In this document: positions 995-21,191 of the stretch, in pieces
How the letters are laid out: each line of letters opens with the position of its first letter
How positions within the stretch are numbered: position 1 is the first letter of the stretch
Assembly: GCF_026013565.1 (NCBI RefSeq)
Contig: NZ_JAPDOB010000001.1
Coordinates: forward strand, 310,001 to 374,000
Direction: 5' to 3'
From: Sphingomonas arvum
GTDB taxonomy: Bacteria > Pseudomonadota > Alphaproteobacteria > Sphingomonadales > Sphingomonadaceae
Length of the DNA: 64,000 nucleotides
The notes under the pieces: generated by a model
The model's database searches: none
Told to the model about the DNA's origin: nothing
What the model saw: only the letters and a program-made list of their open reading frames with translations
Program-made: the position numbers and the translations under genes

Positions 995-2113
995 ATGCCC
1001 AGCCGCTCTGTAGATGTTGAAGACGTGTCGAGGTCTACGCGCGTCGAGTTGGTTCGAAGCTTGTTCGACAATTCCGTGCCTATGCTCATCATGAGTGTAT
1101 TATTCATTCTTGCAGCCGTGCTCTGTTCAAGCAATCACCCAAATTTAATCATGCGATACCTAGGCGCGCTCGGCGTCGTGCTATCACTTGCGCGTCCAAC
1201 GACATTCTATCTACTTCGCCGAAGGCTCAATAGAGCAACGCTCGTTTATAGTAGTGCGAAGCGCATCGAGATCAGATTCGGGTATCTGTATCTTGCCTTT
1301 GCTTCAGTTCTTGGCCTGTTCGCAGCCGCCGGTATGTGGGAATGCCAACCTGCAGAGCAACCGCTCTTTGTAACGCTGATTGTTGGTTATGCGGCGGGGG
1401 CGGCCGCTAGCGTCTCACTGCGGCCCTGGATCGCTTACCCCTCTCAACTGGCTGCCGTTTGCCCTTCAGTGCTAGTGGCGCTAGCAATCGGGGATGCTCC
1501 TCGCCTGCTGCTGGCCGGTATGCTCTTGGCGCTACTCCTCGGCAGTTTCACTAGCGTTCTGTCGCGCTACAGAGGGGCAGTTGACGCAATCGAAATCAGA
1601 TACACGCTTTCAGCGATGGCGAGAACTGACCCATTGACGGGCTTGGCCAACCGCGTTGCGCTCCAGGACGCTTATCAGAGAGAAATCGAACTCGGGCGTG
1701 AACGGAACGTGGCAATCCACTGCCTCGATCTGGACGGCTTCAAGCCTATCAATGATGCCTACGGCCACCTCGTTGGCGACATGCTTCTCGCCCAAGTTGC
1801 AGCACGACTTAGGGGCATGGCTCAGCAACGAGAGATTGCGGTCCGGTTAGGCGGAGACGAGTTCGTCTTTTTCCAACCGGATGTTGAGCATCGGGACGAA
1901 GTTGATCTCATGGCGAGGAGATTGAAGAAGGTAGTGTCCGAACCTTACGACCTGGGCAGCCAGCGAGTAGTCGTTGGTGTAAGTGCTGGATTCTCTACGA
2001 CTGAGGGCGACGGTCTAGGACTTTATCGGCTGCTCGAGATAGCAGACGAAGCGCTTTACATCGACAAGGCCCTTCATAGCTCTTCTACAGCAACGATGAG
2101 AGTGTCTGCCTAA
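995..2113 (+). CDS. Membrane-bound GGDEF diguanylate cyclase
   Basis: Predicted to make cyclic di-GMP from two GTP at the inner membrane. The first half (about residues 25-200) has several hydrophobic segments consistent with five or six membrane helices. The second half begins with DPLTGLANR, the standard entry to a GGDEF domain, and carries an intact GGDEF signature at residues 286-290 (RLGGDEFVFF). The usual inhibitory I-site RxxD just before it is replaced by REIA, so product feedback at that site is probably absent. No sensory domain beyond the membrane part is recognised. It precedes a tandem PilZ gene by about 100 bases, which suggests a local cyclic di-GMP circuit, though the two need not share a transcript. 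The start at 995 lies after a gene-free stretch and has no strong Shine-Dalgarno sequence; a later start is possible. Confidence 0.88.
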   Translation: MPSRSVDVEDVSRSTRVELVRSLFDNSVPMLIMSVLFILAAVLCSSNHPNLIMRYLGALGVVLSLARPTTFYLLRRRLNRATLVYSSAKRIEIRFGYLYLAFASVLGLFAAAGMWECQPAEQPLFVTLIVGYAAGAAASVSLRPWIAYPSQLAAVCPSVLVALAIGDAPRLLLAGMLLALLLGSFTSVLSRYRGAVDAIEIRYTLSAMARTDPLTGLANRVALQDAYQREIELGRERNVAIHCLDLDGFKPINDAYGHLVGDMLLAQVAARLRGMAQQREIAVRLGGDEFVFFQPDVEHRDEVDLMARRLKKVVSEPYDLGSQRVVVGVSAGFSTTEGDGLGLYRLLEIADEALYIDKALHSSSTATMRVSA

Positions 2114-2220
2114 CAGCGATGCAGCTGTGCTCGTACTAGCCAAATACCCCATTCTGGATTGAAAGGTAAATTCTCCTAAACGTAGCCCACGTATGAGAAG
2201 CCACAGGAAGGAGGCTTCTC

Positions 2221-2829
2221 ATGCAAGTTAATCAAGCTGCTGAGCCCTTAAAAGATGTAATACGTGATCGCAGGGGAGTTAAACGTCACTCGCTAGTTCT
2301 TCAGTTAGGGCTGATAGAGTCTGCGAGGAGCGCTCAACTGGGGCTCATTGTGAATCTCGGCGCAGGTGGCCTTAACGTCCGTATGTTCGGCGAAGCACCG
2401 GCATCAAGAGAACTTACGATCAAGTTGCGTGGCGGTCATACTTATAGCGGTAGGGTAGCGTGGCAGAAGGGCCACGAAACCGGCATCCAGTTTTATTCTC
2501 CCCTCTCTCAAAGCGAACTCGAGGCAGTTCTTTGCGCACCGGTGAACGGTGCCAGGGCACCTCGTCTGAGCACCAGCACCAAGGTTCTTGTGAGGAGCGG
2601 AGCCTCTGTTTCAGCTGGTACCATGGTCAACGTCTCGCCGCGGGGAGCCGGACTGACGTTGGCGGACCCGGAGTTTCTCCAACCATCGATAAAGCTCGGA
2701 ATACCTGGCCTAGGCACGTTGGGTGCCCAAATCCGCTGGCAGAAGGGCAATCAGGCAGGAGTGTCGTTCAACGAAGTTGTTCTTCTGAAGGACTTGGCGA
2801 GGTGCATCCAAGCTAGCGCCATTGGCTGA
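2221..2829 (+). CDS. Tandem PilZ-domain protein
   Basis: A 202-residue soluble protein made of two PilZ-like halves. The first half has the RxxxR element (RGVKR) near the N terminus and NLGAGG where the NxSxxG element should be. The second half (from about residue 115) has a cleaner NVSPRG element. PilZ domains bind cyclic di-GMP, and RxxxR plus D/NxSxxG are the binding residues, so the first half may bind and the second, which lacks a clear RxxxR, may be structural. Both halves contain a WQKG beta-strand motif, supporting an internal duplication. The start is well supported by AGGAAGGAGG a few bases upstream. Its neighbour upstream is the diguanylate cyclase. The output partner is unknown. 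Confidence 0.82.
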   Translation: MQVNQAAEPLKDVIRDRRGVKRHSLVLQLGLIESARSAQLGLIVNLGAGGLNVRMFGEAPASRELTIKLRGGHTYSGRVAWQKGHETGIQFYSPLSQSELEAVLCAPVNGARAPRLSTSTKVLVRSGASVSAGTMVNVSPRGAGLTLADPEFLQPSIKLGIPGLGTLGAQIRWQKGNQAGVSFNEVVLLKDLARCIQASAIG

Positions 2830-9223: not shown

Positions 9224-9525
9224 AGATTACGGAGACGACAGATTGTATGTCCGCCGGTGGTGGTAAGTGGAACGGCTGCTTTCGGGTCAGCTGAGGGAGA
9301 TAGTTGACGCTCGAATATCACAGATGAGCGGCTTAGCCTTTATCAGAGCACCAGGGCTCCGCAGCCCGCAGCCGCTGTTTGGCCCGTTCATCGACTAAAT
9401 GCCCAGCGTCCCGAGCCTTAAGACTTGCAAGTCCACCTTGCTTTCGCACCGCCGCCTTCTATCGCCGGAAATGGCGCGCTTGTCGGATGTCGCGACGCCG
9501 ACGGGAGCTGGTTGAGTTTGGTCCC
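9224..9525. other. Intergenic stretch with a repeat copy
   Basis: No gene is seen. Positions 9262-9286 (GGTAAGTGGAACGGCTGCTT..) match 12347-12371 at 22 of 25 positions. Because the two copies bracket the PAS histidine kinase gene, they may be a repeat pair that moved with it or a common genomic repeat. Confidence 0.55.
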
Positions 9526-12342
9526 ATGCAGTCTGACAAAGCGCCAATAGCCACCAGCAGCCTAGCTGGTGCAGAGGAACTTACGCGGCTCAACAGATCC
9601 GCTCTGCCCGCCGATGCCTATCGCACCCTGCTGGACAACATGTCCGAAGGTGTGAGCTTGTCTGACGAGGGGGGCATCATTGTCTACACCAACCCGGCCG
9701 AGAACCGCATGTTCGGCTATCGGCCGGGAGAGCTGCTCGGCCAGCACGTCTCGGTTCAGAATGCCTATCCGCCTGACGAGAATGAACGGATTGTCGCCAC
9801 GGTCATTGCCGAGCTGAAGGCGTCAGGTTTTTGGCGCGGCGAATGGCGCAACCGCCGTAAAGATGGAGAGGTCTTCACTACCACTTCACGCATCAGCGCA
9901 GTTGATATTGAGGGACGTCTCCACTGGCTGTGCGTCCAGGAGGACATCACCGAGCAGACCCGCGCCGCGGACGAACTGCGGACCAGCGAAGCGCGTCTGG
10001 CGCTTGCGACGCACGCAGCCTCGCTCGGTATTTGGGATTGGGAAATCGCAACCGGCCGGATGGCCTATTCTCCTCTGGCAAAGGAGATCTGCGGCTTCGC
10101 CCCCGAACAGGAGGTCACCTACGAAAACGCTAAGGCCGTTACCCATCCCGACGATTATCCGCGCACCTCGGCGATGGCACGTCGGGCGCTCGATCCGGAG
10201 CTGCGCGAGGTACAGCCCTACGAATATCGGATTGTGCGTCCGGACGGATCCATACGCTGGGTGATCGCCCATGGCGAAGCGGTGTTCGACGACGTTGGCG
10301 GGCAACCGAGAGCTGTCCGTTACGTCGGCACCCTGCAGGACATTACCGATCGCAAGCAGACCGAGCAGGAACTTCGGGAGCAATTCGCGATCTTGGCGCA
10401 GCTGGCGGAAGGAGTGATCGTCGCCGATGCGAACGGACGGCTGACTTTCGTCAACGACTCGGCTGCTCGCCTGCATGGTGTGGGGGCGCTCGGGGTGGAG
10501 CCCGGACACTACAGCGACACCTACCACCTCTTTACGGAAGACGGCAGACCGTATCCGCCGCTCGAGCTGCCCCTGTCGCGTGCCTTGCGAGGTGAGACCG
10601 TCGAGGACGCCCGTTGGTTAGTGCAGAGGCCCGACGGCACCTCAATTCTTGCAATTGGCGGCGCGCGCCCAATCCGCGATCAGGCAGGAGATCAGATTGG
10701 CGCGGTGCTGACCCTCCGCGACGACACGGCGCGAGACGCCGCCCAGCGTGCGCTGCGCGAGAACGAGGCCCGCCTCCGCGCGATCACCGATAATCTTCCG
10801 GGAGGCATGGTCTACCAGGTCCGGGTCGATGCAGATGGCGAGGGCCGAAGCTTCCAGTTCCTGTCGCAAAGTTTTGAGAAGCTCACCGGCTACAGTCTCG
10901 ATCAGGTCGCGGCCGAACCGCTGTTGCCCTATAGGACCATTCTGCCGGAGGATGCCGGCTCCCTCGCTCTTGCCGAGGAAGAAGCAATCCGATCGCTCAG
11001 CCCCTTTGATCATGAGGTCCGCTTCAGGCGCGCCGATGGTGAGGTCAGGTGGGCTAGGATCATCTCCGCTCCGCGGCAGCAGACTGATGGGTCGACCATC
11101 TGGGACGGCATTAAGATCGACGTCACCGACCAGAAGCGACTGGAGACAGAACTCAACGCCCTGAACGAGAGCCTTGAACGGCGTGTCCGAGACCGAACGG
11201 TTGAACTGGAGCGCGTTCACGAGCAGCTGCGCCAGTCACAGAAGTTGGAGGCCATGGGGCAACTCACCGGCGGCGTGGCCCACGACTTCAACAATCTTTT
11301 GACCCCGATTCTCGGTAGCCTCGATCTGGTCGTGCAGAAGCCAGGCCTGGGCGAACGTGAGCAGCGTCTCCTTCGGGCAGCGCTGGAAAGTGCCGAACGG
11401 GCCAAGACGCTGGTTCAACGCCTCCTCGCCTTTGCGCGACGTCAGCCCCTCCAGCTTGGACCCGTCGATGTTTCCGCGACTATCGGCGGGATGATTGACT
11501 TGGTTGCAAGCACCTCAGGTCCGCGTGTGCGAGTTTCGACCGACGTCCAAGACGGTCTGCCGGCAGCACTAGCGGAGCGCAACCAGCTCGAGATGGCGCT
11601 GCTGAACCTCTGTGTGAACGCCCGTGATGCCATGCCTGAGGGCGGGGAGCTGTCGATCGCGGCGAGGAGAGTTGCGTTCACGACGGGCCCATCGGGCGAG
11701 TTGGAGCCGGGCAAATATGTTTCTATTGCTGTTTCCGACACCGGTCTTGGGATGACACCGGAGGTTGCAGCGAAGGCAATCGAACCGTTCTTCTCAACCA
11801 AGGGGATTGGCAGAGGCACTGGCCTCGGCCTGTCGATGGTGCACGGACTAGCTTCTCAACTTGGCGGCAGAATGGTCATCAAGTCGAAATTGGGCTTGGG
11901 CACAACGATCGAGCTTATACTCCCGGTCGCCGAAGGAGTTCAGACGCTGCCAGAAACCGTTCTCGATGCGACAATTCGACCCGAGAAGGCCAAGGGCACA
12001 GTCCTGCTGGTGGACGACGAGGAGTCGGTCCGTATTTCGACAGCCGAGATGCTTCTGGAGATGGGCTATACGGTACGCCAAGCTGCGAGCGGCGCAGAGG
12101 CCCTGCGCGTCCTCGAGTCGTGGCGGGCCCAGTTCCTCCTCACCGATCACCTTATGCCTGGGATGACCGGAACAGAACTGGCCGAGCAAGTGAAGCGGTC
12201 GCATCCGACTACACGCGTCCTCGTGATTTCTGGCTATGCTGACATCGATGGCCTGCCCACCAAATTTCCGCGTTTAACTAAGCCATTCCGCAAGCACGAA
12301 TTAGCTTCAGCGCTGGACGGCCTGATCGCGAAGGGCCGCTGA
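9526..12342 (+). CDS. Multi-PAS hybrid sensor histidine kinase with receiver domain
   Basis: About 938 residues, predicted soluble. Order: four PAS/PAC modules (roughly residues 25-150, 155-285, 290-410 and 415-545), a short coiled coil, a HisKA domain with the phospho-acceptor His at about 586 ([13 protein letters not shown]), a HATPase domain (NARDAMPEGG, DTGLGM, GRGTGLGLSMVHG) and a C-terminal receiver with acceptor Asp at about 874 (LLTDHLMPGMTG). 'AHDFNN' places it in the HWE-free, NtrB-like hybrid family common in alphaproteobacteria. The PAS modules suggest sensing of a cytoplasmic cue (light, redox or ligand), but no flavin-binding NCRFLQ motif is seen. The frame is open further upstream to 9379; ATG 9526 is chosen because family similarity begins soon after it. 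There is no response-regulator partner next to it. Confidence 0.9.
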   Translation: MQSDKAPIATSSLAGAEELTRLNRSALPADAYRTLLDNMSEGVSLSDEGGIIVYTNPAENRMFGYRPGELLGQHVSVQNAYPPDENERIVATVIAELKASGFWRGEWRNRRKDGEVFTTTSRISAVDIEGRLHWLCVQEDITEQTRAADELRTSEARLALATHAASLGIWDWEIATGRMAYSPLAKEICGFAPEQEVTYENAKAVTHPDDYPRTSAMARRALDPELREVQPYEYRIVRPDGSIRWVIAHGEAVFDDVGGQPRAVRYVGTLQDITDRKQTEQELREQFAILAQLAEGVIVADANGRLTFVNDSAARLHGVGALGVEPGHYSDTYHLFTEDGRPYPPLELPLSRALRGETVEDARWLVQRPDGTSILAIGGARPIRDQAGDQIGAVLTLRDDTARDAAQRALRENEARLRAITDNLPGGMVYQVRVDADGEGRSFQFLSQSFEKLTGYSLDQVAAEPLLPYRTILPEDAGSLALAEEEAIRSLSPFDHEVRFRRADGEVRWARIISAPRQQTDGSTIWDGIKIDVTDQKRLETELNALNESLERRVRDRTVELERVHEQLRQSQKLEAMGQLTGGVAHDFNNLLTPILGSLDLVVQKPGLGEREQRLLRAALESAERAKTLVQRLLAFARRQPLQLGPVDVSATIGGMIDLVASTSGPRVRVSTDVQDGLPAALAERNQLEMALLNLCVNARDAMPEGGELSIAARRVAFTTGPSGELEPGKYVSIAVSDTGLGMTPEVAAKAIEPFFSTKGIGRGTGLGLSMVHGLASQLGGRMVIKSKLGLGTTIELILPVAEGVQTLPETVLDATIRPEKAKGTVLLVDDEESVRISTAEMLLEMGYTVRQAASGAEALRVLESWRAQFLLTDHLMPGMTGTELAEQVKRSHPTTRVLVISGYADIDGLPTKFPRLTKPFRKHELASALDGLIAKGR

Positions 12343-12371: not shown

Positions 12372-12502
12372 CGGCAATCGGCAAAACCGGACATCCCCTA
12401 AGACAAAAATCGAGACACGCGATTTCGCCGCATGCGGCCGTTCATAGTGCACCACTAAGCACTCGTAAGCGGCCTCCAACGTTGGCTGGCACCCTCGCCT
12501 GA

Positions 12503-13045
12503 TCAGTTGAACCCGAAGAATACCCCGAAGAACATCGGCGCCAGCAACGCCAGTGCAAACAGCAGGAGCGCAAGGACGAGCAGCCTTCCGAGGCAACATC
12601 CTCCGCGCGGTCGCCCCCCTACTGGATCTTCATGGTCGAGACGATCCGCCCGTGCCGACCTTGCGCGAGCTGCGGACATCATGGCACCCAGAAGGATGCG
12701 GAAAGGGTCCGGACCAGTCCGGCCAAGGCGACCCGGATCCATTCGGGTCGGCACTTCAGTTTCCCAGAGTTCCGGTTCATCCGCTTCTGTCGACCGGCTG
12801 ATCGGTGGAACTCCGACCTCGAGCGGAGCAGCTCTTGGCAGTGCGGGCGGCGGCCGACTCGGCACGAGATCGCCGAAGCGGGCGCCGCACTGAGGACAGG
12901 CACTCCCCTCCAGCCACAATCCGGGCATGTGGTTGGTGCAGAAGAAGCGGACCGCCGCCTCGTGACAGGCGTCGCACTCGCCCTCGACCGGCTGAACGGT
13001 ACCGCAGTTGGGGCAGCGCAGGACAATGCCGCTCAAGCGTCGCAC
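12503..13045 (-). CDS. Zinc-ribbon protein with a C-terminal membrane helix
   Basis: A 180-residue protein. The N-terminal 55 residues hold three Cys pairs or near pairs: CPNC, CDAC and CPQC, plus FFCTNH, as in double zinc ribbons. A Pro/Arg-rich linker follows, and the last 30 residues are a hydrophobic helix (LLVLALLLFALALLAPMFFG) that should anchor it in the membrane. It overlaps the 3' end of the phosphatase gene by 13 bases and is the last gene of the four-gene vWA/kinase/phosphatase operon. In known vWA-kinase-phosphatase systems a zinc ribbon is often fused to the vWA protein; here it is a separate membrane-tethered protein (inference that it plays the same part). Confidence 0.75.
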   Translation of the reverse strand: MRRLSGIVLRCPNCGTVQPVEGECDACHEAAVRFFCTNHMPGLWLEGSACPQCGARFGDLVPSRPPPALPRAAPLEVGVPPISRSTEADEPELWETEVPTRMDPGRLGRTGPDPFRILLGAMMSAARARSARADRLDHEDPVGGRPRGGCCLGRLLVLALLLFALALLAPMFFGVFFGFN

Positions 13046-14295
13046 TCCGCGACTGGAGCGGTTGCGCTGCCTTCAGGCGGCGGAAAGATCGAAGCGACCA
13101 GTTCTGGGGGCACATGGAGCCGGTGGACCTGCGGCAGCACGCCGGGAACGTAGCGGGCGAGCGTCGGCACCCGCTCGAACGGGCCGAAGGCCTCGCGCGG
13201 CAGGCGGCGCGACAGGGCCACTGTCGTTAGTATCGGATGCGCCTTGTAAGCCGGGTAGGTGATGAAGCGCTCCTCACCATGATCGTGGCCGCGAACCATG
13301 TGCGTCACCGGACGGCCCATCCGGGTGCTGAGTTCGCAGAAGGCGTCGAAATCCTCCCGCCCGAACTGGCTTCCACGACTGAAGCGATTGGGCATCTTCC
13401 GCCGCGCGCTCGGATGCGCTCGGGTCCAGGTGAAGTCGGACAGGCAGGCCGGATCGTTCCAGTCGCCCGTTTCCTCAAGCTTGGCGTGGAGGTCGCTGAG
13501 CGGAAAGCCGGCGTGAGCAATGAGCAGCCCGTCCGGCAGGAAGAGGGCGTGCGGCGCCTGGGCGAAGAAGCGCACGGCGAGCTTGCCTGCGCGCTCGATC
13601 CATTCGTGCGCGAGGTTGGCGTTGAGGAAGTCGGCAAAGTCGCCCGGCGACACGCTCGAAGCGAAGTGGACGCCATTGTAGGACATAGCTTCGTCATGAT
13701 TGCCGACCAAGACGCAGATCCGTTGCGATGCCGCGATCACCAGCTCAAACACGCGCAGGAGCAGTTCGAGGCCGAAGCCCTCGTCATCGAACAGGTCGCC
13801 GAGCAAGACGATGCGGGGCGGGGGTGATTGGGTGTCGGCAGCGTCCTTGTCGATTAGGGCAAGGGCGGCTTCGAGCGCCAGCAAGTCGCCGTGCAGGTCG
13901 CCGATGATCCACAAGGGTGCGGCGGCGTCGAACTCTCCCACTTTGATGGCTTGGTCTCCCGGCATGGCGCGATCCCCATCGAACATCAGGCTCGGGCCGC
14001 CGGCGCGGTCGAGCAGGGCTTCGAAGGCTTCCACCGTTTGGCGAATCCGGGACCGCTCCCTGGCCCGGGCGACGGCGTCGTGGACGGCCGGCCAGTCAAG
14101 GTCGTGAACGTCGATGATCGCCGGCAGGGCGTCGGGCGCGGGCTTAGCGGGAGGGGCTTCGGCCGGTGCGGTCGGGGAGGCGGCGGCTTCTTCCGCGCCC
14201 GGGTTCGTTGCTGCCAGCTCAGGCTGTTGGGAGCCGGAGACCGGCGCCGTTTCCCCGGCGCGCGTCACCGAAGCTTCGGGTTCACCCTTGCTCAT
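13033..14295 (-). CDS. PPP-family (calcineurin-like) metallophosphatase
   Basis: A 420-residue protein. The first 60 residues are a low-complexity Ala/Pro/Glu tail. The catalytic core has the complete PPP signature: GDLHG (132-136), GDLFDD (166-171), GNHDE (198-202), a His in LLIAHAGFP and GHDHG near the C terminus. These residues coordinate two metals in Ser/Thr protein phosphatases. Its start overlaps the kinase stop by four bases (ATGA), so kinase and phosphatase are translationally coupled and probably act on the same substrates in opposite directions. Most bacterial kinase partners are PP2C enzymes, so a PPP enzyme is a notable variant. The substrate is unknown; the vWA and zinc-ribbon proteins of the operon are candidates. 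Confidence 0.85.
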   Translation of the reverse strand: MSKGEPEASVTRAGETAPVSGSQQPELAATNPGAEEAAASPTAPAEAPPAKPAPDALPAIIDVHDLDWPAVHDAVARARERSRIRQTVEAFEALLDRAGGPSLMFDGDRAMPGDQAIKVGEFDAAAPLWIIGDLHGDLLALEAALALIDKDAADTQSPPPRIVLLGDLFDDEGFGLELLLRVFELVIAASQRICVLVGNHDEAMSYNGVHFASSVSPGDFADFLNANLAHEWIERAGKLAVRFFAQAPHALFLPDGLLIAHAGFPLSDLHAKLEETGDWNDPACLSDFTWTRAHPSARRKMPNRFSRGSQFGREDFDAFCELSTRMGRPVTHMVRGHDHGEERFITYPAYKAHPILTTVALSRRLPREAFGPFERVPTLARYVPGVLPQVHRLHVPPELVASIFPPPEGSATAPVAECDA

Positions 14296-15638
14296 GCCGG
14301 AAGGACAGTCAGCGGGAGCTTGGCAATGTTCTTTACTTCATTGCCGACCGCGATCTGGTCGCCAGCCCGCAAGGGCCGGGGAGTGGTCAGAGCGCGGCCG
14401 TTGAGAAGCGTCTGATTGGTCGCCGCTGCACCCGGCCGCACGAACCATTGCCCGCCCGCACCCCGCTCCAGCACGCATTGTCCTTCGTCCCAAAAGTCTC
14501 CGTCCGCACCGAACTGCCGCACCAGCCGCTTGCCGAGTTCGGTTCGGATCCGAAGCTGCAGCGTCGCCCCATCCGCACCGCGCAGCTGCACCGCTTCGGA
14601 AGTGATCGGCGGGCGGGCGGTAGGGACGGCAGCTGCAGGAGCAGCCGCCGGTGCCGCCGGCCGGGGCAGCGGAGCCGAAGGCTTCGGCGCCGGAGCAGTC
14701 GGAGCCGCCGCTGCCGGCTTGCGGTTACGGCCGCTCAGGATGGCACGCAGCTCGGCGGCGGTCGGCCGCTTGGCCGGATCCGGATTGAGGCAACGGTGAA
14801 GCGCCGCGCTGACGTCGCCGTTGCTGGCTGGCCATGGCATCTCGCCAAGGAGGGCGGGCGGCTCGGCCGTGTAGCCATGTACCAGCCGCGCATAGTCCGA
14901 CTGGTCTTCCGACCAGTAAGGGTGGCGGCCGGCGAGCAGTTCGTACAGGATCAGGCCGCAGGTGAAGATGTCGGAAGCAAGGCCAGGCACCCCACCCTTG
15001 GTCAGATGCTCCGGCGAGCGGTAATTGTCGGTTCCGACATACCCCTGATGGCCGTGCCACGGCGGGCGGCGATCGGCGAGGAGCGAGAAGTCCATGTCGA
15101 TCAGCTTGAGCTGGAACTCCGCGGCGATGGTCGGATCTTCGATCAGATAGGCATTCGCGGGCTTGAGGTCCGCGTGGACGATCTTGACGTCGTGCAGCGC
15201 GCCGACACCGGCCACCAGCACCTTCGCCCAGGTCGCATGGCGGGCCCAGATGACCGGATTGCTGGTCGGGGCCTTGCCGATGGCGCGGTGGCTTTCCCGC
15301 TCCTTGTCGAGGACCTGCTGGAGGTCGGCGCCGTTCTCGACGAACTGGAAGGCCTGGAAGTAGCAGCGGCCACCCCAGACTTCCTCGAACGAATCCACGT
15401 GGCCGACCGCGAAATTGTCGGCCTTGCCCCGGACGACCCGGGCGGCGAGCTCCTTTTGGTAGGCGACGAAGTCGCGGTACCAGACCACCGTGGGTGCCGG
15501 TGACTTGTACTGCTTGAAGAACACCTTGCGGCCGTCGGGCGCCTGCGCGGCATAGGAGATGGCCATCATCCCCGGCCCGAATACCTTAAGTATCCGGTAG
15601 CCGCGGATGGTGTCGCCGACCTTGAGCTTCTTCGCCAT
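14292..15638 (-). CDS. Ser/Thr protein kinase with a C-terminal FHA-like domain
   Basis: A 448-residue protein. Kinase domain (about 12-305): a Gly-loop-like GPGMMAISYA, Lys42 in VFFKQYK, catalytic loop HADLKPAN (155-162, a non-RD type because Arg is replaced by Ala), DFS in place of DFG at 183-185, SPE in the activation segment and DIFTCGLILYELLAG. A Pro/Ala linker follows. Residues about 345-448 resemble an FHA phosphothreonine-binding domain (NQTLLNGRALTTPRPLRAGD is the typical 'N..NG..L..GD' end). There is no membrane helix. The FHA domain could bind the kinase's own phosphorylated sites or a partner. It is the second gene of the operon, 29 bases after the vWA gene. Confidence 0.87.
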   Translation of the reverse strand: MAKKLKVGDTIRGYRILKVFGPGMMAISYAAQAPDGRKVFFKQYKSPAPTVVWYRDFVAYQKELAARVVRGKADNFAVGHVDSFEEVWGGRCYFQAFQFVENGADLQQVLDKERESHRAIGKAPTSNPVIWARHATWAKVLVAGVGALHDVKIVHADLKPANAYLIEDPTIAAEFQLKLIDMDFSLLADRRPPWHGHQGYVGTDNYRSPEHLTKGGVPGLASDIFTCGLILYELLAGRHPYWSEDQSDYARLVHGYTAEPPALLGEMPWPASNGDVSAALHRCLNPDPAKRPTAAELRAILSGRNRKPAAAAPTAPAPKPSAPLPRPAAPAAAPAAAVPTARPPITSEAVQLRGADGATLQLRIRTELGKRLVRQFGADGDFWDEGQCVLERGAGGQWFVRPGAAATNQTLLNGRALTTPRPLRAGDQIAVGNEVKNIAKLPLTVLPA

Positions 15639-15667
15639 GGGCCGCTCCTACGGCCGACGCCACTGTG

Positions 15668-16600
15668 TCAAAGCGCGACCGTTTCGGCCGACCTCGATAC
15701 GCTCGCCGCGAGCTGCTTCAGCGTATTGCGAAAGTTGACGGGATCGGACGTGAACTTCTGCAGGGCTTCCTGCGCATTGAGGCCCTCGAACTCGACGACC
15801 TCCCACTCCGACTTGTCGATCTGGCTGAGCCGGTCGTAACCCTCGAAGTTGGGCGCAAACACGCTCAGGATGATCCGATTGGCCATAACCACATTTGCCA
15901 CGTCCTGGAGCGAACCGCCCTTGGCTTCCGGGATGCTCATCGTCTCCTTGAAGGAAGCGTCCGTAAAAACAACGACCACGCGCGCCGCGTCGCTGCGATA
16001 ACGCCACTTGCCGGCCTCGACCGTCTGCGCACCCTTGGCCGTCGCTTCCATGGTTGCGACCTTGTACAGGGTGTCGAGCAGCGATTCCGGCTCGTCGCCG
16101 CCTCCGTTCGCGTGCAGGGCTGCAAGCTGCGCCTTCAGCTCCGCAGGGTCGCGCACGAACTGGTTGTCCACGAGCCAAGGCAAGCCGTCGCTCTCGGCCG
16201 CTTCGATGTCGCGATAGCCGACGACCTTCGCCCGCCAGTCCTTCACCGGGGCGGCATTGTTGGCATCCCCGCTGCTGAGGCTGCCGACGAAGGTCTCGAT
16301 GTTCTGGCGCAGCGCATCGATGCACGGGGCCATGCTGCCGCTGATGTCGACCACGAAGACGATGTCGGCCACGCCCTTGGTCTTTTCACGGCTCTGCGGA
16401 GCCTGCGGACTGGCGGCGACTTCGGCGACGCCGGGCGTTGCGGGAGGCGGATCGGACGGAAGCGGCTCCAGCAGCGAACCGGACGCGCTCGCATCGGGCG
16501 AGGTGGCGGCTGTCGCGGCCGCGTCCGGGGCGAGCAGATCGGTTGAGAGGCCAGTCGCGGCGTCCTCGGAGGCGGGCGCGGTCGGATCGGTGCTGCTCAT
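15668..16600 (-). CDS. vWA-domain protein with an intact MIDAS motif
   Basis: A 310-residue protein. A disordered Ala/Pro/Ser N terminus (about 1-75) leads into a von Willebrand factor A domain starting ADIVFVVDISGSM, which carries the DxSxS metal site (D85, S87, S89). Further parts fit the fold: VVGYRDIE, GGGDEPESLLDTLY and ARVVVVFTDASF (TD element). It resembles the TerY/Mg-chelatase-like vWA proteins that bring partners together through Mg. No signal peptide is present, so it is cytoplasmic. ATG 16600 is chosen because GGAG lies seven bases upstream; a longer frame exists to 16714. It is the first gene of the operon and stands behind a perfect EcfG-type promoter. Confidence 0.85.
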   Translation of the reverse strand: MSSTDPTAPASEDAATGLSTDLLAPDAAATAATSPDASASGSLLEPLPSDPPPATPGVAEVAASPQAPQSREKTKGVADIVFVVDISGSMAPCIDALRQNIETFVGSLSSGDANNAAPVKDWRAKVVGYRDIEAAESDGLPWLVDNQFVRDPAELKAQLAALHANGGGDEPESLLDTLYKVATMEATAKGAQTVEAGKWRYRSDAARVVVVFTDASFKETMSIPEAKGGSLQDVANVVMANRIILSVFAPNFEGYDRLSQIDKSEWEVVEFEGLNAQEALQKFTSDPVNFRNTLKQLAASVSRSAETVAL

Positions 16601-16651
16601 GTGAAATCTCCGTGAATCGTGGTCGCGTAGAAGCGACGCAATCAAGGAGCG

Positions 16652-16676
16652 AACGAGGCGTCGAAATGAACGTTCC
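16652..16676 (-). promoter_or_regulatory. EcfG-type general stress promoter for the vWA operon
   Basis: On the minus strand GGAAC (16676-16672), a 16-base spacer and CGTT (16655-16652) match the alphaproteobacterial EcfG consensus GGAAC-N16/17-CGTT exactly. Transcription would begin about 40 bases before the vWA start codon, a normal distance. Confidence 0.75.
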
Positions 16677-17017: not shown

Positions 17018-18760
17018 TCACCGCAGCGCATTGCCTATAGCATCTTGCAGGGTCGCCAGCCGGTAGGGTTTCAAGATGATTGGGCGGCCCTTGGGGCCGC
17101 TTTCCACAACTTCCTGGCTGTAGCCGGTCGCCAGCACGACTGGCAGTTCGGGACGTTGCTCTTCAAGGATCTCGGCAAGCCGAAGACCGCCCATGCCGGG
17201 CATCACGACATCGCTGAAGACTAAGTCAAACGGCTCCGACACGATCAACTGCAACGCCTGCTCGGCTGACGTGGCGAGCACCACCTGGTGTCCCTGCTCG
17301 CTCAGCATTGTCTCGACATAGGAACCGACTTCCACGTTGTCTTCGACGACAAGGATGCGCCCGAGCACCATGCCATCAGGCTCTTCCGCCGACTTCCCCG
17401 GGGCGGCAGCCGCATGCGCTGGGCAAATGGGCAGTAGGATGGTGACCGTTGTTCCCTTACCAACCTCGCTCTGCACGCTCACGTTTCCGCCTGACTGAGT
17501 AGCAAAACCATAGACTTGGCTAAGCCCCAAGCCGGTGCCCTTGCCCGTGGCCTTGGTTGTGAAGAACGGTTCGAAGATCTGGTCGAGCACTTCAGGAGGA
17601 ATGCCGGGGCCGGTATCGCTGATGTCGAGGCTCATCATCAAGCGACCATCGTCCTCCGGAACGCTCCGGGTCCGAATGCATAGCCGTCCGTCACCCGCCA
17701 TCGCATCACGAGCATTAGAAGCGATGTTGAGGATCGCGGATTGCAACTGGGCGCGATCCACTTCGACGGCCAGCTCATGTTCTACAAGCTCGGTGCGCAC
17801 GACGATCCGCTCGCCCAAGGTGCGGTCAAGAAGGTCACGCATGGACCCAATCAGGTCGTTCACGTCGATGTGCTCGGGCTTTAGCGGCTGACGCCTGGCA
17901 AACGCCAGCAATTGCGAGGTAAGCGCCGCCGCATTGGCGGAGGCCTGCACGATCGCCTGGGCGAACCGCACGCGCTTGGCATCGGGCAGGGTCTCACGAG
18001 CAAGCATATCGGCGGAGCCTTGGATCACCGTCAGCAGATTGTTGAAGTCGTGAGCAATACCGCCGGTAAGCTGTCCGAGTGCCTGCATCTTCTGCGATTG
18101 GCGTAGCTGCTCCTCGGCACGCGCCCGAACTTCCATCTGCTCGGCCAGCAAGACGTTCGCTGCCGCCAGCGCCTCCGCTCGATCCTCGAGTTGGCGATTG
18201 GCACGGCGGAGCCGCGCCTGTGCAAGGCCGAGCACGGCCGTGACCAGCCCAGCCAGGATGATCAGCGCGGCAAGAGTGAAGTAACGGCTGAGTTTGCGGG
18301 TGAGGCTTTCCCGATCCAACTCCAGGCCGACTTGGCCGACCTGCTGCCCCGAGGACTCCACCGGAACGATCACGCGGATACCGGAGCCCCCATCCGGGAG
18401 GTCGGCGATGCCAGCCGGCAACCTGATGCCGGTCCGACTATATCCGGCGGCCAATCTTCCGTCGCGGTCGAAGGCACCGACCCAGCGCACCTGCTTGTTG
18501 ACCCGGAAAGCCGAAACCGTCTCGTTCATGGCTTGCGTGTCGCCGAAGTCCAGGGCGGCGGTCAGCGAGGCTCCAAGGACTTCTGCCTGACTCCTCGTTT
18601 CGGCTTCGCGCAACGCATCGTAGCTCCGATTATTGTAGATGAGGGTGCCAATGCCCGCAAGAACGATGAAGACTGCAAGAGCCAGGATCAGAATTGGTCC
18701 GGAACGCCAGCTTGCTTGATCCATCTGAACCTTTGAGACGGAGGGAGAACTATGCAACAT
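17018..18760 (-). CDS. CHASE8-like hybrid sensor histidine kinase with receiver
   Basis: A 580-residue inner-membrane protein. Two membrane helices (about 22-42 and 160-180) flank a periplasmic domain of about 115 residues. That domain reads like CHASE8, the sensor domain of Yfi[35 protein letters not shown] and [17 protein letters not shown]-like linker and coiled coil are followed by HisKA with His237 (GGIAHDFNN), HATPase ([29 protein letters not shown]) and a receiver with Asp517 ([11 protein letters not shown]). In YfiN the CHASE8 domain is held inactive by YfiR; here the YfiR-like gene is directly upstream with a TGATG overlap, so the same periplasmic control probably acts on a kinase output instead of a cyclase (inference). 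It is the last gene of the three-gene operon. Confidence 0.87.
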
Positions 18761-19302
18761 CAGCGTGTCCTCACGGCTACTGCCAGTCCGAGAAGCCGCG
18801 AGCTGATCGTCAAGCGTCGCTCGGCGGCGGCCGCCTCATCGATAAAGAAGCGCACTCGGCCACTCACTATCGCGAAGTGGACGATGCCCCGTTGAGAGGC
18901 GTTCGTGGAATCCGTTACGGTCAGGATCGGGAGTCGACCAATGGCGGCAAGTAACTGTCCCGCCGGCTGATCCGGGCTACCGCCAACGAAGGCAACATGA
19001 CACCCTCGGACGCCCGTTGCGGATGAGAGCCGGCGAACGATAATCCTGCGACCATCAACTTCTTGCCCGGAGGCGGATTGTTCAAGGAGTCCGCCGAACG
19101 GATCTCGACCTACGGTGCAGAGCACAAGGGCTGCTGACGAGCTCGCCTGCACGCCCGAAGGCCAGGTGACGTAGCGTGCAAAGCGCGGCAGGAAAGCGGC
19201 TTTAACGGCCATCTCGCTTGAGGCAGCGAGCGCCTGCGACGCCATTCCGGCAAGAACCGCCGGGCAGACCAGTCGCAAAACAAAGCGCCTGACGCGCGTC
19301 AT
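18760..19302 (-). CDS. YfiR/HmsC-like periplasmic protein (DUF4154)
   Basis: A 180-residue protein with a signal peptide (basic start, then LVCPAVLAGMASQALA). The mature part follows the YfiR pattern: AVKAAFLPRFARYVTWP, LCTVGRDPFGGLL, GRRIIVRRLSS, CHVAFVGGS, PILTVTDS, GIVHFAIVSGRVRFFID and LTISSRLLGLA. In YfiBNR, YfiR sits in the periplasm and represses YfiN until sequestered by an outer-membrane partner. Here its neighbours are an outer-membrane TonB-dependent receptor before it and a CHASE8-like kinase after it, each with a one-base TGATG overlap, which fits a role as the relay between the two membranes. Two cysteines (LCTV, GCHV) match those common in the family. Confidence 0.85.
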   Translation of the reverse strand: MTRVRRFVLRLVCPAVLAGMASQALAASSEMAVKAAFLPRFARYVTWPSGVQASSSAALVLCTVGRDPFGGLLEQSASGQEVDGRRIIVRRLSSATGVRGCHVAFVGGSPDQPAGQLLAAIGRLPILTVTDSTNASQRGIVHFAIVSGRVRFFIDEAAAAERRLTISSRLLGLAVAVRTR

Positions 19303-21191
19303 CAGAAGCGCAAGCGGCTTCCCGCAACGATACTTCGCTGCGGGCGCTGGCCTTGATTGAGATCATTGCTCTCCAGGTGCGTCGCATGAAGCAGGTTGCG
19401 GCCCTGTACGAATAGTTCAACCGCATCGGTGACCGTCCATCCAATCCGACCTGACGCCTCGACGTAAGAGGGGATGCGCGGGGCTGTTTCAATGGCGCCG
19501 CTCCAGCGGCCATCTACCGAAAGCTGTACCTTCCTGCCCAGGTCAAGGTCCGTGCCGGCCTTAAGCTGCCACTTTGGATCGTCGCCAATCGCCGCGAGGT
19601 TGGCGAGGTCGGTGCGGCCTTTCCTTACCGAGAAGTCTTTCCACAGGCGGGTGCCGCCAACAGTGAGCCGCCAATTGCTTGCGAGCTGAACAGTGCTCCA
19701 TCCCTCGATGCCCCAGCTGCGCCCCTTGATCCCGTTGCTGAGCTGGATGGGGAGGACACCGCCTAGCGATGATTCTGTCGTTCGAATGTCTTCGTACCAG
19801 TTATGAAAGGCCGTGACCGACAAAGTAGCGAACGCCGTTGGCTGCCCGCGATATCCGGCTTCCAGCGCCACGAGCTTTTCGGTCTTGAAGTTGGTTGCAG
19901 GCGTCAGAAGGGGCGGCGCCGACAAGCCCCTGTCGATACGTGACGGAGTTCGGATGGCGCGGGAGATCGCGCTCCACCAGAGGTCGCGGTTGCTGGCTTG
20001 CCACGCCAACCGAACGCTCGGCAGAGCTTGCCAGCCCGTAAAGGTGGACCGTTCCACCTTGATGCCGGGGATGACCGAGATGCCGCGGCCAAGGTCGATG
20101 CGGTCCTGCACGAACGCGTTCCCGATCCATAGGCGCTTGGAAGTAGGGTCCAGCTGGAAAATGTTGAGGTTGTTGATGAATTTGTCACGGGTTGTGCGGA
20201 GCCCTGCACCAGCCACGAGATTGTGAATGCCCTTGGTGACATTCATCTGTGCTTCCACGTCGATCGTTTCGAGTGAATCTCGCACCAGGATGAAGTCACG
20301 GCGGAACTTATCATAGTAGGCCTGCAGCTCGACCGAGGTGTCTGTGGACAGGGTGTGCTGCCACCGGCCAAGCAAGTTGAAGCCCCTGTTGCCATCGCCG
20401 GTCACGGATTCCGCCTTATTGCGAAACCAATCCCCTTGCAGGGTCAGGTGATCGGACTCGGACACCACGTCGCCGCGGAAGCCAACCTGCCAGCCACGAA
20501 AGGCGTCGTCCCCAGCAAACCCCGTCCCGGTCGGCAGCGCTTCGCGGTCGTGATAATCACCATAGACCCTGATTGCGCCAAGACTACCAAGCGCCGTTCC
20601 ATAGCGCGCCCCGGCAGTCCGCTCGTAAGCTCCTCCAGTACCACGCACCAGCGTTCCGAGCGTATCATGCGCGTCGCGGCTCGTAATGTTCACTACCCCG
20701 TTCACCGCATTCGGTCCGTAGAGCGTACCGCCTGGCCCGCTGATCACCTCGATCTGCTGGAGATCTTGAACGAGCGGGGAATGGAGGTTCCAGAACACCT
20801 GGCTCTGGAGCGGCGTGTAGATGCTGCGCCCATCCATAAGGACCAGAAGCTTGTTGGCAGTCTCGGTGCCGTTGAAGCCTCTCGCAGTGATAGCGTATTG
20901 GCTCGCATCAACTTGCTGGACGTCCAGGTTAGGCGCGAGCCGCAGCAACTCCGGTAGCGACGTAGCACCTGAATTGAGCACATCTTCGCCAGTGATCACA
21001 TAAAGCGATGTCGGCGCGGTACTGAGCGGCTCGTCCCTCTTGGAAGCCGAGCGCACCGGAACTTGCGCCAATTCTTCAATAGAGAGGGCTTGAAGATTTG
21101 GGGTTTCCGTTGCTCCGGCTACCATGGGCATAGCAGCGGCAATCAGCGGCACGTGCGCGACGGCCACCAGGAGGTTCCTCAATCTATGCAC
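19302..21191 (-). CDS. TonB-dependent outer-membrane receptor
   Basis: A 629-residue protein with an N-terminal signal region (hydrophobic stretch, cleavage near MVAGA). The plug domain starts after ALSIEELAQVPVRSASKRDE and includes the family signatures YVITGEDVLNSGA, ITARGFNG, KLLVLMDGRSIY and IEVISGPGGTLYGPNAVNGV. A 22-strand barrel follows, ending in a terminal Phe (GSRLRF). The TonB box is not obvious; the LSIEELAQV stretch may serve, and there is no long N-terminal signalling domain of the FecA type. The receptor resembles those often found with YfiR-like proteins in proteobacteria. Its ligand is unknown. It is the first gene of the operon, so the order is outer membrane, periplasm, inner membrane. 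Confidence 0.88.
   Translation of the reverse strand: MHRLRNLLVAVAHVPLIAAAMPMVAGATETPNLQALSIEELAQVPVRSASKRDEPLSTAPTSLYVITGEDVLNSGATSLPELLRLAPNLDVQQVDASQYAITARGFNGTETANKLLVLMDGRSIYTPLQSQVFWNLHSPLVQDLQQIEVISGPGGTLYGPNAVNGVVNITSRDAHDTLGTLVRGTGGAYERTAGARYGTALGSLGAIRVYGDYHDREALPTGTGFAGDDAFRGWQVGFRGDVVSESDHLTLQGDWFRNKAESVTGDGNRGFNLLGRWQHTLSTDTSVELQAYYDKFRRDFILVRDSLETIDVEAQMNVTKGIHNLVAGAGLRTTRDKFINNLNIFQLDPTSKRLWIGNAFVQDRIDLGRGISVIPGIKVERSTFTGWQALPSVRLAWQASNRDLWWSAISRAIRTPSRIDRGLSAPPLLTPATNFKTEKLVALEAGYRGQPTAFATLSVTAFHNWYEDIRTTESSLGGVLPIQLSNGIKGRSWGIEGWSTVQLASNWRLTVGGTRLWKDFSVRKGRTDLANLAAIGDDPKWQLKAGTDLDLGRKVQLSVDGRWSGAIETAPRIPSYVEASGRIGWTVTDAVELFVQGRNLLHATHLESNDLNQGQRPQRSIVAGSRLRF

Follow-up and report, generated by a model that had tools for sequence, protein, structure and literature searches.

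A patchily distributed operon of vWA, kinase-FHA, PPP phosphatase and zinc-ribbon genes with a putative EcfG-type promoter in Sphingomonas arvum and other bacteria

The DNA analysed here is a stretch of 64,000 nucleotides from Sphingomonas arvum (contig NZ_JAPDOB010000001.1, positions 310,001 to 374,000), which we call the window and whose numbering is used throughout. It carries a tightly packed operon of four minus-strand open reading frames (ORFs), hereafter the cassette. The first gene encodes a vWA protein of 310 amino acids (15668..16600), with a Pro/Ala-rich low-complexity N-terminus, a vWA domain with VWA_4 features and a strongly conserved C-terminal tail. It is followed by a Ser/Thr protein kinase of 448 amino acids (14292..15638), in which a Pro/Ala linker leads to an FHA tail, by a PPP-family phosphatase of 420 amino acids (13033..14295), whose gene shares its first 4 bases with the kinase gene, and by a double zinc ribbon protein of 180 amino acids (12503..13045) with a hydrophobic segment at its C-terminus. 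The intergenic distances of +29, -4 and -13 bases given by an initial annotation, made from the sequence alone, are reproduced exactly. In Pfam, the vWA protein matches VWA (35.9 bits) and VWA_4 (30.8 bits), the kinase Pkinase and FHA (21.8 bits; cut-off 20.7) and the phosphatase Metallophos, all over cut-off, and every match of the zinc-ribbon protein falls short of its cut-off; none of the four proteins matches an NCBIfam model above its curated cut-off. The GGAAC-N16-CGTT site which the initial annotation saw ahead of the genes is an exact match to an EcfG-type promoter (GGAACGTTCATTTCGACGCCTCGTT; 16652..16676, minus strand, read from 16676 to 16652) and stands 51 bases ahead of the vWA ATG. 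Taken as a whole, the structural observations of that annotation are partly confirmed, and its interpretation as a stress-controlled phospho-signalling variant of TerY-type systems is partly supported.

We compared the cassette at 24 loci, with the window counted and duplicates removed. Four are from sphingomonads (the window, L025, L003 and L009), nine from Microvirga (L004, L005, L007, L028, L029, L057, L059, L060 and L061), ten from Rhizobium (L008, L026, L027, L030-L033, L063, L065 and L066), and one (L006) is a contig of a metagenome-assembled genome (MAG) labelled Polaromonas. For L057, L059-L061, L063, L065 and L066 the genus is that of the genus set searched (that of L004 or of L008). 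The Rhizobium indicum plasmid loci L026 and L032 share an identical 200-base core and are not independent; plasmid NZ_CP050104 lies outside the set. The initial annotation held that its proposal would fall if no conserved neighbourhood existed in other genomes; the neighbourhood does exist, and the order of the four genes is identical at all 24 loci. The 4-base overlap between kinase and phosphatase genes recurs at 14 of 16 loci. Across four pairs and all four genes, the ratio of nonsynonymous to synonymous substitution rates (dN/dS) is 0.06-0.38, and the genes are therefore being maintained. At one Rhizobium leguminosarum plasmid locus (L033:6694-10574; CP050552) the kinase and phosphatase frames are broken, either by decay or by sequencing error.

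The conserved unit is exactly these four genes. When each protein was searched singly against 72,556 plasmid records, the same nine records came out on top every time; beyond them, the vWA search returned matches at no more than 32% identity, and the kinase search met generic kinases in 317 further records. Among 17 loci compared for their neighbouring ORFs (at least 70 amino acids; flanks of about 0.4 to 9 kb), no fifth gene is common to the lineages, the exceptions being histidine kinases and regulators of generic type and, at L007 and L031, a transposase-like ORF. It is this coincidence of the nine plasmid records, together with the lack of any other shared gene at the 17 loci, that delimits the unit.

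The metal ion-dependent adhesion site (MIDAS) of vWA domains is made of a DxSxS motif, a Thr loop and an FTD motif. The MIDAS that had been called intact is so for DxSxS (third place Ser, or Thr in five copies) and FTD, and not for the Thr loop, at whose expected position all 23 of 23 copies read GGGDEPE; the DASAS that the window copy shows in its N-terminal part is a chance match. The vWA protein has 17 invariant Ser/Thr residues, and six of these (T284, T293, S300, S302, S304 and T307) fall within its last 27 residues. In the kinase, HAD replaces HRD (the window copy reads HADLKPAN) and DFS replaces DFG in 23 of 23 intact copies, which bears out the description of a non-RD kinase with DFS. 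The kinase is probably active, because its catalytic residues (K42, E63, H155-A-D157, K159, N162 and D183-F-S185) are invariant in the same 23 copies. Its tail, called FHA-like before, passes the Pfam FHA cut-off in the window and is recognised in 6 of 6 tails scanned; judged by these profiles, it is a genuine but divergent FHA domain.

The PPP family is marked by the motifs GDxHG, GDxxDRG, GNH[DE] and GHxH. Our phosphatase keeps GDxHG (as GDLHG), GNHD, H[AG]GF and GHDH, the Asp, His and Asn residues of its motifs are invariant in 23 intact copies, and its profile matches are to rdgC, PP5 and calcineurin. The earlier view of a complete PPP phosphatase thus stands for the metal-ligand motifs and fails for the Arg of GDxxDRG, to which we return below. 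The fourth protein is a membrane zinc-ribbon protein as first described: eight ligands in two ribbons (C11, C14, C24, C27, C36, H39, C50 and C53) are invariant, and the hydrophobic C-terminal segment is present in 16 of 16 copies checked.

What suggests that the operon is under general-stress control? The site in the window is at chance level when taken by itself. Shuffled windows hold a mean of 0.47 GGAAC-N16-CGTT sites each, with at least one site in 35 of 100, so that a single occurrence is unconvincing alone. The whole genome has 19 perfect motifs, fewer than the 28 of the reversed control, and counting motifs therefore says little here; several of the remaining 18 genomic sites lie shortly before possible start codons. 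Comparison between loci is more telling. At 23 of the 24 loci the vWA gene has GGAAC-N16-[C/T]GTT ahead of it, as CGTT at the four sphingomonad loci and as TGTT at the other nineteen. Where the called start was directly usable (14 loci), the site lies within 150 bases of it in 13 cases, against 0.014 expected by resampling; dependence among the loci makes this figure overstate the case. Inspection by eye shows upstream sequences that diverge strongly among sphingomonads, Microvirga and Rhizobium except round the site. The published EcfG motif is GGAAC-N16-CGTT in Rhizobium etli (PMC3892343) and GGAAC-N17-20-GTT in Sphingomonas melonis, where the best sites pile up no more than 100 bp from the start (PMC6599016).

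The regulators are also in place. The S. arvum genome encodes NepR, next to which lie genes for PhyR and an EcfG-like sigma factor, and NepR is matched in 6 of the 7 genomes behind L003-L009 (five over cut-off, that of L003 just below). The genome without a NepR match is that of L006, the only locus of the 24 that has no EcfG-type site. We regard L006 as a natural control that, on a small scale, favours regulation by EcfG; it comes from one MAG of unstated completeness. The conserved site, the PhyR, NepR and EcfG-like genes of the host and this NepR-negative exception together make general-stress control of the operon, as initially proposed and as predicted from sequence, well supported. It could be argued instead that another extracytoplasmic function sigma factor, or simple relatedness of the loci, conserves the motif, and that the operon lies outside the EcfG regulon. 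This would agree with TGTT in place of CGTT at 19 of 24 loci, with the relatedness of upstream regions within genera and with the lack of genome-wide motif enrichment in S. arvum. However, the divergence of upstream DNA among the three groups everywhere but round the site, the form and position of the S. melonis motif and the coincidence of the missing site with the missing NepR all speak against it, and we assign it a low probability.

The occurrence of the cassette is sporadic. The phosphatase as query found seven loci among 84,980 species, in whose sequences six exact peptide patterns of limited sensitivity yielded 45 stretches, as well as the nine plasmid records and further genomes. The cassette is present in 2 of 61 relatives searched, S. 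arvum and one other member of its genus, in 2 of 397 genomes at family level (the second being that of L003), in 1 of 387 at class level and, by the vWA profile, in 1 of 397 at phylum level, the last two being S. arvum itself. It occurs in 8 of 48 genomes in the genus of L004, in 5 of 148 in that of L008, and in the family of the L006 genome only in that genome (1 of 299). One genome searched as Microvirga (G1210) has two diverged copies on contigs C1 and C2 (L059 and L028, the latter matched by coordinates). Plasmid typing classes six of the nine records as conjugative. Rarity suggests transfer between classes; the concatenated tree, in which L006 falls between the sphingomonad copies and the Microvirga and Rhizobium copies, is unrooted and lends nothing to this, and the flanks of L006 look chromosomal from their ORFs. 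At the window, an empty-site analysis allowed no insertion boundary to be drawn, because the flanking CHASE8 kinase gene is itself accessory. A phage origin was considered and rejected: no match was found in 50,697 phage records, and the 96 viral contig stretches that matched the search pattern encode no relative. Matches in PHROGs are to a kinase, a NinI-like phosphatase and, weakly, an RNA ligase.

Considering this distribution, the cassette might be an anti-phage or other defence module that is only incidentally stress-controlled. It is sporadic, plasmid-borne and found in two classes, its kinase matches the PADLOC models mad6 and PD-T4-6, an AbiEii-type toxin gene lies downstream at L008, and TerY-P-like modules with OB-fold kinases are described as protecting against phage (PMC11090510). 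However, we read the PADLOC matches as those of generic kinases, and the vWA, PPP and zinc-ribbon proteins have no PADLOC match at E 0.1. No defence gene is common across lineages at the 17 loci, the cassette has neither toxin nor nuclease, and EcfG control is unusual for defence. We consider a defence role distinctly unlikely.

Several features of the surroundings may be recorded. In the window, the cassette is preceded by genes for a TonB-dependent receptor, a YfiR/HmsC-like protein and a CHASE8 hybrid histidine kinase in a row (17018-21191, minus strand); few genomes of the genus have the CHASE8 kinase (6 of 61, S. arvum counted). A large multi-PAS hybrid histidine kinase with a receiver domain (9379-12342, plus strand) is convergent with the cassette, and a GGDEF diguanylate cyclase gene followed by one for a PilZ protein lies at 995-2829 (plus strand). 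A possible intrinsic terminator (12415..12435, minus strand) has 8 pairs and a T-rich tail; it is tentative, since the region has four such sites against a shuffle mean of 3.8, that is, not above shuffles. Downstream of the cassette at L008 there are DUF6088 and AbiEii genes, a toxin-antitoxin-like pair (L008:11051-12839), and ORFs that read as transposase-like are also near. Ferritin-like genes follow the cassette at one sphingomonad locus (L003:10389-11630) and one Rhizobium locus (L033:13981-14487), possibly by chance.

We propose, with moderate confidence, that this patchy operon, predicted to be transcribed by EcfG, forms a self-contained, reversible Ser/Thr phosphorylation switch in a membrane-anchored complex, with the tail of the vWA protein as its substrate. 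Under general stress, EcfG would transcribe the four genes, as the promoter comparison predicts. The kinase would then phosphorylate its partner vWA protein, most likely at the six invariant Ser/Thr residues of the tail. Both the kinase's FHA tail and the double zinc ribbon may bind to the vWA protein. The C-terminal segment of the zinc-ribbon protein may keep this complex at the inner membrane, and dephosphorylation would be the task of the PPP enzyme. That the four proteins form one complex, that the tail is the substrate, which way the signal runs and what it controls are all inferred; no candidate target or output gene was found for the cassette. The proposal draws on the same gene order at 24 of 24 loci, the tight spacing, the low dN/dS, the conserved promoter site, the invariant catalytic residues and the precedent of the Sulfolobus Arn circuit described below.

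Several observations weigh against this proposal. First, the vWA tail is conserved no better than the core (from residue 76 to 300, 11-22 of every 25 residues are invariant), so that the invariance of the tail may mark folding or binding rather than phosphorylation. Second, FHA domains bind phosphopeptides through a His and a Ser; when the kinase tail is aligned to kinesin FHA domains, Q387 takes the place of the His and D384 that of the Ser, which makes a classical phosphothreonine reader doubtful. Third, GDxxDRG of the phosphatase reads GDxFDDxG in 23 of 23 copies, with D171 at the place of the Arg in the alignment to rdgC. Fourth, the two AlphaFold predictions, made with 8-sequence alignments, are poor, with a predicted local distance difference test score (pLDDT) of 52.9 and a predicted template-modelling score (pTM) of 0.34 for the kinase, and of 55.9 and 0.61 for the phosphatase. 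Foldseek on these weak models ranks Ser/Thr kinases and PP5/PP1 first and adds little. Finally, the nineteen Microvirga and Rhizobium promoter sites have TGTT, not CGTT, and the NepR-negative control is the one MAG.

If the operon is under EcfG, the cassette would add reversible Ser/Thr signalling downstream of the sigma factor, in root-nodule Rhizobium as well as in other bacteria. It may also offer a compact system of four proteins from one operon for testing how phosphorylation drives the assembly of vWA, FHA and zinc-ribbon proteins, for which Sulfolobus supplies the worked-out logic. The initial annotation suggested a module not yet described, and we found no description of this operon in a literature search that covered mainly titles and abstracts, with subscription literature thinly represented. 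Several known systems come near it.

One of these is the threonine-phosphorylation pathway of type VI secretion in Pseudomonas aeruginosa, which joins the kinase PpkA with its vWA sensor domain, Fha1 and the phosphatase PppA (PMC3224232). The cassette, with kinase, vWA, FHA and phosphatase likewise together, could be a stray relative of this pathway. However, the pathway serves secretion, and the S. arvum genome has no match to the VipB family (PF05943). The cassette phosphatase is of the PPP type, the vWA domain is a separate protein, and no secretion gene is among the common neighbours at the 17 loci. For S. arvum, this relationship is largely refuted, and it is hardly credible overall.

The TerY-P triad was the system named at first. 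It is described as a combination of a TerY-like vWA protein, a PP2C phosphatase and a kinase ending in a zinc ribbon, for which a role as metal-sensing phosphorylation switch has been hypothesised (PMC11090510). The cassette resembles it in encoding a vWA protein, a Ser/Thr kinase, a phosphatase and a zinc ribbon together; it differs in the VWA_4 features of the vWA domain, in PPP for PP2C, in the FHA domain that occupies the place of the zinc ribbon on the kinase, in a separate membrane zinc-ribbon gene and in the stress promoter. It might be a true TerY-P triad whose PP2C has been replaced by PPP and whose zinc ribbon has separated from the kinase. The same list of parts by function agrees with this, as does an alignment of the kinase to Escherichia coli YegI over 153 columns (36% probability, E 0.00038), as might happen with any two such kinases. 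In this comparison the E. coli proteins YegL, YegI and PphC were the only stand-ins for TerY-P, YegL being the sole one for TerY. The vWA protein aligns to YegL at 58.5% over only 31 columns (hhalign) and has no GDTP loop, and YegL has no VWA_4 match; no relation of the PPP enzyme to PphC and no similarity of the zinc ribbon to YegI were found. Likeness of the vWA tail to the Ser-rich end of YegL was tried as a sign of TerY membership and dropped, as 408 of 1000 shuffles score as high. Within the flanks of about 0.4 to 9 kb, neither ter nor restriction genes are common to the 17 loci.

Of the outside vWA proteins compared, the best-aligning one comes from a Calothrix plasmid (NZ_CP011383; L039), at 97.9% over 167 columns. 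It has GGGDEPE and a VWA_4 match and adjoins a kinase, and a neighbouring protein matches PP2C_2 just under the cut-off (23.1 against 24 bits). In Herpetosiphon plasmid pHAU01 (L041), a vWA protein with a VWA_4 match also stands by a kinase, with no recognised phosphatase. Both vWA proteins are from other phyla and are only about 27-29% identical to ours. A Tolypothrix plasmid stretch (L038:4027-12235), whose annotation lists one FHA and one PP2C protein besides three vWA proteins, may be a relative of the wider kind in cyanobacteria. Because the Calothrix protein adjoins a kinase and a PP2C_2-like protein, the broader vWA/kinase/phosphatase kind is already known, and the swap to PPP is a variant of it. 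This makes replacement of the phosphatase plausible. The description of the cassette as a variant of TerY is not upheld, with a vWA protein nearer to Calothrix than to YegL, a phosphatase showing no relation to PphC and FHA rather than a zinc ribbon on the kinase; a true TerY-P triad is, in our view, unlikely.

The cassette, read as a reversible switch on the vWA tail, works most like the Arn circuit of Sulfolobus. There, the vWA protein ArnB is phosphorylated on its C-terminal domain by the kinase ArnC and dephosphorylated by PP2A, ArnA binds ArnB with its FHA and zinc-finger domains, and the circuit responds to nutrient supply (PMC6509490, PMC12852372, PMC7472852). The same five kinds of domain (vWA, kinase, FHA, PPP and zinc-binding ribbon) are found in both, and the likeness is one of kinds only. 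ArnA joins FHA and zinc finger in one protein, whereas the cassette has FHA on the kinase and a separate zinc ribbon; the cassette also forms one operon, has an EcfG-type promoter and carries a membrane segment on its zinc ribbon. The four-helix ArnB_C domain has no Pfam match on the cassette vWA protein up to E 0.1. No sequence kinship is established, and we do not call the cassette a member of the circuit. As a more tentative thought, for which our confidence is low, the cassette may be the bacterial counterpart of the Arn circuit: the vWA tail would be the switch that kinase-FHA writes, PPP erases and the zinc ribbon localises, in a mobile module, often on megaplasmids, that would add a post-translational layer to the EcfG response of its host.

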